Shown here: piece by piece, positions 1,778 to 4,705 of the stretch
How the letters are laid out: each line of letters begins with the position of its first letter
Position numbering within the stretch: position 1 is the first letter of the stretch
Origin: Nitrospirales bacterium
GTDB lineage: Bacteria; Nitrospirota; Nitrospiria; Nitrospirales; UBA8639
Length of the DNA stretch: 64,000 bases
Direction of reading: 5' to 3'
Assembly: GCA_021603905.1 (NCBI GenBank)
Contig: BQIU01000006.1
Span: 1 to 64,000 of the forward strand
Notes under the pieces: generated by a model
What the model was told of the DNA's origin: nothing
The model's input: only the letters and a program-made list of their open reading frames with translations
Database searches by the model: none
Program-made: the position numbers and the translations under genes

Positions 1778-2833
1778 TTATCGACGATTTCGATGACCGA
1801 CCGTTTCCTCTTCATACTGCTTTGAAAGGCGTTTGGTCTCTGGATGAAGGGTGTAGCCCCGTCCTTTGACAATATCGCGGGTACGAAAGAACGGGCTTAA
1901 CATCCCGCTTGGATGTAGATAGCCTGCCCGAAGAGGGACTGACCGGTTTTGATGATGAATGAGATGGCACGGCACAGGCCGAATACTTGTTAGCCATGCT
2001 GCCAGATCTTGAGGGTTGCCAATTGATGCAGACAATAAAAGGAGCCGGGCTTGGGTCGGACAAAAAATGATCGTTTCCTCCCAAACCACTCCACGTTCCG
2101 GGTCGGCCAGGTATTGTGATTCATCCAAGATCACCAGGCCAAGGGTGTTGAGTCGAAGATCGATTTCTCCACTCGCGGCATCATAGAGCAAATTCCGCAA
2201 AATTTCCGTGGTCATAATCAAGAGCGGAGCCTGCGCATTGTCTCGTCGATCCCCTGTAAGAATCCCGACTTTCTCGGGACCAAAGAGTTGAGAGAATTCC
2301 ATATATTTTGTATTTGACAGTGCTTTAAGTGGTGAGGTGTAAATCACCGTACGTTCCTGTTTAAAGGCATATTTTGTCGCTTCGATTGCGACGAAGGTCT
2401 TGCCACTTCCAGTGGGCACACTCACAATCACATCAGTCGTGGCCAGTTGTGTCACGGCCTCTTCTTGCCACGGATCAGGATGGAACTCCTTTGCTGGAGG
2501 AGGCACGCCAAGTCCCTCAAGTAAATGAGAGACAGTGACAGGTGGAGGCAAGGAGGAGGCTGTGGGTTTCGTTTTCGATTTTTGAGGGAACGGTTTCTTT
2601 TTCGCAGAGACACGAGAAGGTGCAGGCCCTGGTGCACGGACAGATCTTTGGGTTTGATACTGTAAGACATCAGTTTCTAAGGCCTCACGCGATTCCGAAG
2701 GAAGGGAGAGAAACACGTCAATTAACCGATGTTTCCCAAGACGAAAATGACGATGAACTCGTCCCTGAGCAAGCTTGTGAAGATGTCGAAGTGGAAGTGA
2801 TTCAAGAAGACCGATGAGTTCGTCATTCGTCAT
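1778..2833 (-). CDS. Ski2-like helicase, N-terminal (DEAD/RecA1) half as a separate protein
   Basis: This 351-residue protein holds only the first RecA-like domain of a Ski2/Mtr4-type superfamily 2 helicase. Residues 1-115 are a charged, proline-rich leader. The Q-type WQEEAV stretch is near 122, Walker A (PTGSGKT) at 140-146, motif Ia (TSPLKALSN) near 167, motif II as DESQ at 237-240 and motif III (SAS) at 268-270. It ends soon after the PLRAGYLHPSG linker, before helicase motif IV. Motifs IV-VI are in the gene just upstream on the same strand (2846-4705), with only 12 bases between. The two products therefore probably assemble into one helicase, though the domain order on the transcript is reversed. 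Confidence 0.85.
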   Translation of the reverse strand: MTNDELIGLLESLPLRHLHKLAQGRVHRHFRLGKHRLIDVFLSLPSESREALETDVLQYQTQRSVRAPGPAPSRVSAKKKPFPQKSKTKPTASSLPPPVTVSHLLEGLGVPPPAKEFHPDPWQEEAVTQLATTDVIVSVPTGSGKTFVAIEATKYAFKQERTVIYTSPLKALSNTKYMEFSQLFGPEKVGILTGDRRDNAQAPLLIMTTEILRNLLYDAASGEIDLRLNTLGLVILDESQYLADPERGVVWEETIIFCPTQARLLLLSASIGNPQDLAAWLTSIRPVPCHLIHHQNRSVPLRAGYLHPSGMLSPFFRTRDIVKGRGYTLHPETKRLSKQYEEETVGHRNRR

Positions 2834-2845
2834 GGATAGAGCCTC

Positions 2846-4705
2846 TTACGGAAGTTCTTCAAGAACTTCCCGTCTCATCGTGGTGATGGCTGAGCTGGCG
2901 GTCTCGGCTAGACTAGGATGGGAAGCTTTGAGTGTTTGCAATTGAGAGAGAAATTCGATCGTTCTGGCAAAGAGTCGATAGACATCACCTTCAGCCATGG
3001 CCGTCAGGCGAACCAGTGATGCCCATTTCAGATTTGGATCACGAACCCACTCATCAGTTAATGCGGCCACATCTGTCCGGAGAAGCGGAGGTTCTTCATA
3101 TGACGCCAGAGAACTTGCGACAGCGCGAACGTGGTGCAGCATGGTGCTGAGGCCTGAACTCATTCGAAGAAATGTTCCCGGCCGATCATCATCATGAGCA
3201 ATACTCGCCATCATAGCTGCCAAAAGCGCAGGCTCAATGGCCGCAAATGCTTCCATTCGAATCAGTTCCGTGATGAGAAGGGAATGATCGATGCGAATCA
3301 GCCGAGCCCATTCTCCTTCTGAGGTCAATTCAGACGTCGCGGTCAAATAGCCAAAATGATGTAACACATCGCTCTTTTCCTGAAATCGGTGCCACAATCC
3401 TGTCCGCAGAGCTTGAATGGTCTTTGTGAGCCCTTTTTCTTTTTGGCGAAGTCGTGATGCCGTCGCATGATCTTTTCGGCATGCCGCATGCGACGAACAA
3501 CTCGGGCACGAGAATTCATCCGTGAGGACCGCAAGTATTTGCTGATCTTCTTCCTGTTCTTTTTCGACAAGAACGGGTAACACCGGGAGTCCAACGGGTA
3601 GGGCATTCAGTTCCTGAGCGAGACGAGAGAGCGTATTGGCCTGACACCAGGGAAAAACTCTAAGAGGTTTGAATTCGAGCACATGGTCATACAGCTGATT
3701 CACCATCACCAATGGGCATTCTGTGATTGTGCCCTTCGCGCGCAAGATCGACAACATCGGATGTCGTTGCCCGCGACTTCGATATTGACGAAGAATCACG
3801 GCAAACCCTTTTGAGACTTGAATCACTCGGCCCGGAGTAAGGAACGGCAATTGCGCGGCAGTAGCGGGTGAGTCTTGATGCGTGACTGGACGGCGTTGGG
3901 CTTTCCTTCGTTTGGCTTGGTCAAACACCTGCCATTGCGTGATCCAATCAGTACAGACTCGCGGACCGTAGGGCTGCATATTTTCATGGATGGTATCAAG
4001 ATGGTTTTGATGAACTTCCGCTCTTCGGTTTAATTGGAATTGGGCAAAGCTTTTGGCCAAAATTCCTTCGATATGATCAAGAGGGTGAGCTTTTAATAAA
4101 TTGAGCACCATGGGATATGAAATGACAAATTGACTTTCTATCGGCTCGGGATAACCTATCAGGCCTTTTCCTAAGACCTGAAGGTCAATATAGGGAGACG
4201 GGGTAATGACGACGAACCCAATCAAGTCTTTTCCTCTACGTCCACCACGCCCCGCCAGTTGTTGAATCTCTCCGATGGTCAGATCAGAAAAGTCCCTAGC
4301 CTTTCGAACGCTTGATTGGGTAATCACAACAGTCCGTGCTGGGAAGTCGACACCCGCCGCTAAGGTCGTGGTCGCAAAGACGGCATCTAAATACCCTTTT
4401 CGCATCAATTCTTCAATGGCGATTTTCCACGAAGGAAGATGCCCCGCGTGGTGTGCCGCAACGCCGCAGCGGGCGACAGTCGGCATGAGTGGATGTCCGG
4501 TGATACTTGGGTACTCGACGGCGAGTTGCTCTAAAAATGTGGCAATCTTCTGGGTTCGCTGGGGAGGAAGGTGTGTCGTACTTCGTTCGAATGCGGTAAT
4601 CGCATCGTCACAAGCTCGACGAGAGGTTAAAAAGACTATCGCAGGAGTCAGCTGTTTTCTGCGAAGAACGTCTACTAAATCAACTGGGTGAATAGCTGGT
4701 GGCAT
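2846..4705 (-). CDS. Ski2-like helicase, C-terminal (RecA2 plus DSHCT-like) half as a separate protein
   Basis: A 619-residue protein that starts right at the second RecA domain of a Ski2-like RNA helicase. Motif IV-like FLTSRRACD is at residues 25-33, motif V (TTTLAAGVDFP) at about 112-122 and motif VI (QQLAGRGGRRG) at 148-158. The rest includes a cysteine cluster (CPSCSSHAAC) and a helical end with LTSEGEWARL resembling the DSHCT region of cyanobacterial and chloroplast ISE2-type helicases. There is no Walker A or DExH box, so it cannot hydrolyse ATP alone. It is transcribed before the ATPase-half gene (2833-1778) with 12 bases between them. Ski2-like helicases remodel RNA; the cellular role here is unknown. 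Confidence 0.85.
   Translation of the reverse strand: MPPAIHPVDLVDVLRRKQLTPAIVFLTSRRACDDAITAFERSTTHLPPQRTQKIATFLEQLAVEYPSITGHPLMPTVARCGVAAHHAGHLPSWKIAIEELMRKGYLDAVFATTTLAAGVDFPARTVVITQSSVRKARDFSDLTIGEIQQLAGRGGRRGKDLIGFVVITPSPYIDLQVLGKGLIGYPEPIESQFVISYPMVLNLLKAHPLDHIEGILAKSFAQFQLNRRAEVHQNHLDTIHENMQPYGPRVCTDWITQWQVFDQAKRRKAQRRPVTHQDSPATAAQLPFLTPGRVIQVSKGFAVILRQYRSRGQRHPMLSILRAKGTITECPLVMVNQLYDHVLEFKPLRVFPWCQANTLSRLAQELNALPVGLPVLPVLVEKEQEEDQQILAVLTDEFSCPSCSSHAACRKDHATASRLRQKEKGLTKTIQALRTGLWHRFQEKSDVLHHFGYLTATSELTSEGEWARLIRIDHSLLITELIRMEAFAAIEPALLAAMMASIAHDDDRPGTFLRMSSGLSTMLHHVRAVASSLASYEEPPLLRTDVAALTDEWVRDPNLKWASLVRLTAMAEGDVYRLFARTIEFLSQLQTLKASHPSLAETASSAITTMRREVLEELP

Follow-up and report, generated by a model that had tools for sequence, protein, structure and literature searches.

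The window analysed here is a 64-kb stretch of DNA from a Nitrospirales bacterium (contig BQIU01000006.1, positions 1 to 64,000). The products of two neighbouring genes on its minus strand are probably the subunits of a Ski2/HelY-type helicase of superfamily 2 (SF2), with a shared ATPase site. The gene that is transcribed first, of 619 amino acids (aa), corresponds to the RecA2 and DSHCT part of such an enzyme (the C-half). Its TAA stop is followed, after 12 nucleotides (nt), by the ATG of a 351-aa gene for the ATP-binding part (the N-half), and both open reading frames (ORFs) are complete. An earlier note, made from the DNA letters alone, had placed motifs IV-VI and a DSHCT-like end in the upstream gene and Walker A, DESQ and motif III in the downstream one, with 12 bases between two intact frames. 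Our analysis confirms this layout: RecA2, motifs IV-VI and a Pfam DSHCT match (1.9e-23) are found in the C-half, and PTGSGKT, DESQ and SASIGNP are located in the N-half (Table 1).

The two halves tile a single Ski2-like helicase

Besides DSHCT, the C-half matches Pfam Helicase_C at 6.9e-5 (23.5 bits, exactly at the cut-off) and the N-half matches Pfam DEAD at 2e-21, while the MTR4 beta-barrel and stalk families reach only 0.036 and 0.18 in the pair. We aligned both halves to the same 907-aa actinobacterial protein, which we take to be HelY (Nonomuraea gerenzanensis, L199:2200-4923, unannotated in the record). The N-half covers its residues 30-248 (8e-46, 39% identity over 230 alignment columns) and the C-half its residues 268-901 (4e-45, 28% over 648). 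The break corresponds to HelY residues 249-267, which separate the RecA domains, and leaves both of these whole. Such tiling of HelY places the break in the linker that joins RecA1 to RecA2, as the earlier note had proposed.

Among solved structures, Mtr4 is the best match of both halves (N-half 6.2e-40, chain residues 84-271; C-half 1.2e-33, best stretch starting at chain residue 322). The Mtr4/Ski2 entries stand far above those of the Hel308 and Brr2 types: for the N-half, 140 bits for Mtr4 compare with 61 for the Hel308-type entry 2va8 and 56 for Slh1, and for the C-half 120 bits compare with 76 for ASCC3, 74 for Slh1 and 54 for 2va8. The N-half also hits Pfam's DEXQ-box domain of Suv3 (3.2e-8), but the best solved relative remains Mtr4. 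Quick trees, built from 35 rows each, unite the 26 sampled N-halves (support 99) and likewise the 26 sampled C-halves (95), and these groups join two DSHCT-bearing canonical helicases against seven others (support 100 and 99). Neither the bit scores nor the trees place the pair closer to the Hel308 or Brr2 types than to Mtr4/Ski2/HelY. As the tree program warned of long branches meeting and just two DSHCT-bearing canonical proteins were included, the trees point to a group and not to an exact sister. The alignment omitted the distant helicases L214, L219 and L224, where the cut point fell inside RecA2, and L221, which has a short ORF.

Counted together, the two proteins show the homology of a Ski2/HelY-type helicase across RecA1, RecA2 and DSHCT and conserve motifs I, Ia, III, V and VI. 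Motif II, on the other hand, reads DESQ and not DExH, and the RecA domains are not on one chain with RecA1 first but in two genes with the RecA2 part first; we therefore describe the pair as a split, permuted relative and not as a standard member. Viral contigs scanned with HelY and with the C-half, not with the N-half, yielded no relative.

The arrangement is conserved across the Nitrospirales

We searched a sample of 295 genomes of the phylum, of which 98, the window's own included, were counted in the window's order; the 98 were taken from match listings, in which genomes without a match come last by kinship, those of the same order ahead of all others. Full-length matches to either half were confined to this order. 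The best matches outside it (2.3e-30 and 6.8e-23) were partial and fell on the canonical helicase of G225, a genome of the same class and the only one outside the order with a DSHCT match. The Ski2-like helicases that we fetched from the phylum outside the order were single ORFs in normal order in 14 of 14 cases.

Within the order, the halves are adjacent on the same strand with the C-half first in 90 of the 98 genomes, including all 14 single-contig genomes, and 92 carry both halves on one contig, a few of them partial (e.g. G315, N-half residues 1-233). The other genomes comprise G010 and G231, where the halves are further apart (see below), and G293, with partial matches on different contigs. 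The C-half was found alone in G083, G193 and G268 (a fragment in the last), the N-half alone in G251, and neither in G150. The G083 contig ends 160 nt past the C-half, and both the G251 N-half and the G268 fragment lie at a contig edge. The complete genome of Nitrospira moscoviensis (L105) carries the same arrangement. A scan of species genomes gave 124 relatives, the best 80 of which were kept as loci; the titles of these 80 name Nitrospira, Nitrospirae or Nitrospirota types with three exceptions that we take as misbinned, the bins L068 (labelled Nitrospinota), L087 (Gammaproteobacteria) and L090 (Nitrosospira). Conservation across the order indicates that the arrangement is not due to chance. 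The sole apparent fusion, a 979-aa single ORF at L142, contains a run of N between the halves and was dropped from later counts.

Loci L001-L198 were then filtered: both halves had to be seen, with the C-half reaching residue 600 and the N-half scoring at least 200 bits. Fifteen loci failed, and removal of sequence duplicates left 120 distinct loci. The failures were loci that were partial or at a contig edge (including L017, L024, L025, L098, L116 and L192), the canonical loci of G225 (L167, L197), loci with unlinked or unpaired halves (L059, L112, L134, L155, L186, L193) and L107, where a run of N breaks the C-half. Without L142, 119 N-halves and 108 C-halves were usable.

We measured the ratio of nonsynonymous to synonymous substitution rates (dN/dS) in pairs of more than 80% identity with dS of 0.05-1.5. 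The median was 0.071 for the N-half (594 pairs, 5-95% range 0.047-0.129, maximum 0.264) and 0.055 for the C-half (708 pairs, 0.033-0.103, maximum 0.133): both halves are under purifying selection. In G019 one TAA was flagged inside the N-half match, yet the ORF is open over 356 aa. PTGSGKT, YTSPLKALSN, MTTEILRN, DESQ and SASIGNP each occur in all 119 N-halves (RxVPL in 118), and TSRRxCD, HHAGHLPxWK, ATTTLAAGVDFPAR and GRxGRRG each in all 108 C-halves. By their usual names these include motifs I (Walker A), II and III in the N-half and motifs V and VI in the C-half; motifs V and VI act at the RecA1-RecA2 interface, where motif VI has the role of an arginine finger. The invariance of these motifs in both proteins thus indicates that residues sensible at the interface have been kept in both.

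A reversed order cannot arise from one nonsense or frameshift mutation. Together with the break in the linker, the intact frames, purifying selection and the recurrence in 90 genomes, this upholds the claim of the earlier note that the genes are a permuted split pair. The window's assembly (90.8% complete) showed no fused helicase, and neither relaxed selection nor an assembly error, which the note had also named as evidence to the contrary, was observed.

Predicted structure

As a surrogate for the complex we modelled a single-chain read-through of the window pair twice with AlphaFold, which is not a two-chain prediction. The second model, based on 96 rows including 20 distant pieces, reached a predicted local distance difference test (pLDDT) of 84.8 and a predicted template modelling score (pTM) of 0.72. 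By a rough estimate that assumes simple rigid bodies, pTM would be 0.56-0.63 if the C-half alone formed one body and 0.71-0.81 with RecA1 docked. Since the observed value is nearer the latter, docking of RecA1 on the C-half is favoured in the surrogate. Foldseek listed Mtr4, FRH and Ski2 first for both models, with template modelling (TM) scores of 0.28 and 0.40 for the first hits.

Several observations weigh against the two-subunit reading. The first surrogate, based on 66 rows all from the order, reached a pLDDT of 74.9 and a pTM of only 0.40, and the higher pTM was obtained only once the distant pieces had been added. The Foldseek superposition on Mtr4 is globally poor (first hit TM 0.40, root-mean-square deviation 24.8 Å); this is as expected for a permuted chain and does not prove docking, Foldseek being a chain-order aligner that is unable to test a permuted arrangement. 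A Shine-Dalgarno-like stretch precedes the N-half in just 61 of 118 distinct adjacent loci, and tight coupling is therefore not universal. Finally, G193 (99% complete) has an intact C-half (G193:C5:86263-88119) well within a contig of 320 kb, its context shared with the C-half of G231, and no N-half was found even with every candidate scored; either this is an assembly gap or the C-half lives alone. The earlier note's two-protein active site is the natural inference, with moderate support from one surrogate but not from the other.

Alternative explanations

It is improbable that the halves act independently and no longer form a joint helicase, with the N-half as an ATP-binding RecA-like protein that has a different partner and the C-half as an RNA-binding protein. 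In favour of separate roles, each half has its own start, the N-half has an N-terminal domain of its own, and the halves can be unlinked, with G193 apparently holding the C-half only. In G010 both ORFs are intact at a distance of 7.2 kb. In G231, on a contig shared with L112, an intact N-half lies 25 kb beyond the C-half, which is followed by a sugar-epimerase-like gene. G325 does not belong to the sample of 98; its C-half (619 aa) and N-half (351 aa) are both intact but sit on different contigs, and the 6 kb upstream of the N-half contain no C-half. Halves that have been parted and yet both retained behave as two working genes, and their retention at a distance also counts in favour of the two-subunit reading. 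On the other hand, separate roles do not sit well with motifs V and VI in every C-half and motifs I-III in every N-half, nor with the 92 genomes that keep both halves on one contig.

Far less credible is a single-chain working enzyme whose halves are joined post-transcriptionally, either as a C-half-N-half read-through product or through protein trans-splicing. The 12-nt gap of the window pair does preserve the reading frame. Across the 118 adjacent loci, however, gaps range from -4 to 195 nt (median 84), stop and start overlap in 6, and the halves are in frame in only 21, so that programmed read-through was rejected; a fused product is not conserved. Room for a split intein is small when compared with the size of inteins, with about 7 residues before the RecA2 match and about 50 after RecA1 (no intein search was run), and the only apparent fusion is the run of N in L142. 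In the window, a Shine-Dalgarno-like GAGG stands in the spacer right after the C-half stop. Consensus scans of the region gave no more promoter- or terminator-like sites than shuffled sequences. Adjacent genes of the pair are likely to be co-transcribed.

An assembly artefact or a decaying helicase gene can practically be dismissed: such a reading could appeal to the fragmented state of the window's assembly (203 contigs, 7.54% contamination) and to the second copy of the pair in it, but the arrangement recurs in all single-contig genomes of the order and in the complete N. moscoviensis genome, and the dN/dS medians are low.

Proposed mechanism and origin

We conclude that the pair is most likely an obligate two-subunit helicase. 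The two proteins would assemble with Walker A and DESQ of the N-half facing motifs V and VI of the C-half. ATP would be bound by Walker A and DESQ, and the site would be completed at the subunit interface by motifs V and VI, while RNA, as with Mtr4/Ski2, would run across the DSHCT part of the C-half. For adjacent genes, translational coupling could balance the subunits. Ski2-like proteins are described as RNA-dependent ATPases with 3'-5' unwinding (PMC5818665), and by analogy we would expect the same of the pair.

The conserved N-terminal domain of the N-half has invariant residues L10, L18, H19, R25, R31, G33, K34, R36 and L42 (25 rows). The linker after it, residues 56-95, varies strongly (mean identity to the window 0.13). 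A 25-row profile of the domain found nothing convincing among solved structures; the best match (1.5e-5) covers 20 residues of an entry with the name Monoextended DARPin, and none of its stretches passed by itself. Nothing convincing was found in Pfam either (best 0.0081, phage CIII family). This extra domain may, speculatively, aid docking or RNA binding. A reversible motor, in which association of the separate RecA1 and RecA2 proteins switches the ATPase on and off, perhaps governed by this peculiar domain, is a tentative and rather unlikely extension of the two-subunit helicase.

As to origin, the simplest history would be one break of an ancestral single gene, within the flexible RecA1-RecA2 linker, and a reversal of its pieces in the order's ancestor. 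The simplest route would be a tandem duplication followed by loss of the front of the first copy and the back of the second. Such reciprocal loss would yield exactly the present order, and the spacer would then be the old intergenic region.

Features and neighbours of the pair

Table 1 Features of the split helicase genes in the window.
Feature	Position	Strand	Remark
C-half gene: RecA2 and DSHCT part of Ski2-like helicase, 619 aa	2846..4705	-	transcribed first
Motif V region ATTTLAAGVDFPAR, C-half residues 111-124	4334..4375	-	108/108 C-halves
Motif VI region QQLAGRGGRRGKD, C-half residues 148-160	4226..4264	-	GRxGRRG in 108/108 C-halves
CPxC...C cysteine cluster in C-half	3479..3508	-	108/108 C-halves
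DSHCT domain, C-half residues 459-615	2861..3331	-	Pfam 1.9e-23
12-nt spacer, stop-spacer-start TAA-GAGGCTCTATCC-ATG	2834..2845	-	
N-half gene: small N-terminal domain and RecA1 (ATP-binding half), 351 aa	1778..2833	-	transcribed second
N-terminal domain of N-half, residues 1-55, conserved in the order	2669..2833	-	
Motif I (Walker A) PTGSGKT, N-half residues 140-146	2396..2416	-	119/119 N-halves
Motif II DESQ (not DExH), N-half residues 237-240	2114..2125	-	119/119 N-halves
Motif III SASIGNP, N-half residues 268-274	2012..2032	-	119/119 N-halves

The cysteine cluster of the C-half aligns with a CHGC stretch of HelY and possibly binds metal. The second copy of the whole pair in the same assembly (G000:C4:11-2935) lies at a contig start and is 93% (N-half) and 96% (C-half) identical to the window pair. 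Given the contamination of the bin it probably belongs to a second strain, though it could be a true duplicate. The next gene beyond the C-half in the window, on the opposite strand, looks like a STAS protein. In N. moscoviensis the start of the C-half overlaps by 26 nt (L105:4059-4084) with the end of an ORF that resembles glucose-1-phosphate adenylyltransferase, hinting at coupling with a glycogen gene. Neither of these putative neighbours suggests a function for the pair.

Significance and comparison with known systems

SF2 helicases are generally held to work by the opening and closing, around ATP, of two RecA domains on one chain. If our reading is true, the pair is a long-conserved natural enzyme with its RecA domains on separate proteins, in which the linker is dispensable, and clean mix-and-match tests of the communication between RecA domains become possible. 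It is also an example of a gene that was split, with its pieces reversed, and became fixed in this state throughout one bacterial order, the one to which the nitrite-oxidising Nitrospira belong. Domain-based annotation would yield two partial 'helicases' here and could mask one split enzyme.

We found no report of such a split, reversed helicase pair in searches of the open-licence literature. HelY of N. gerenzanensis is homologous to both halves but is one chain (RecA1-RecA2-DSHCT) with DEVH in motif II, and its alignment offers no counterpart of the N-half's N-terminal domain. The exosome cofactors Mtr4/DOB1 and Ski2 are, among solved structures, the best sequence match of both halves and the best fold match of both models, but they are single chains with a DExH box; Mtr4 has an arch domain. 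The canonical fused helicase of G225 (L197:2939-5095, 718 aa), from another family of the same class, is likewise DSHCT-bearing and Ski2-like; it differs in being a single gene in normal order that is shorter and retains little of what lies between RecA2 and DSHCT.

Reading the C-half and then the N-half resembles reading across the junction of the two tandem helicase cassettes of Brr2, which is one chain with two whole cassettes (PMC8220420). Among the precedents that we have seen, reverse gyrase comes closest: in Nanoarchaeum equitans and Methanopyrus kandleri this enzyme, which contains an SF2 helicase part, occurs naturally in two polypeptides (PMC8185306). The boundaries of the M. kandleri pieces do not match the two domains, and the splits described there neither fall between the RecA domains nor show a reversed gene order, as opposed to the helicase pair of the Nitrospirales, which combines both.

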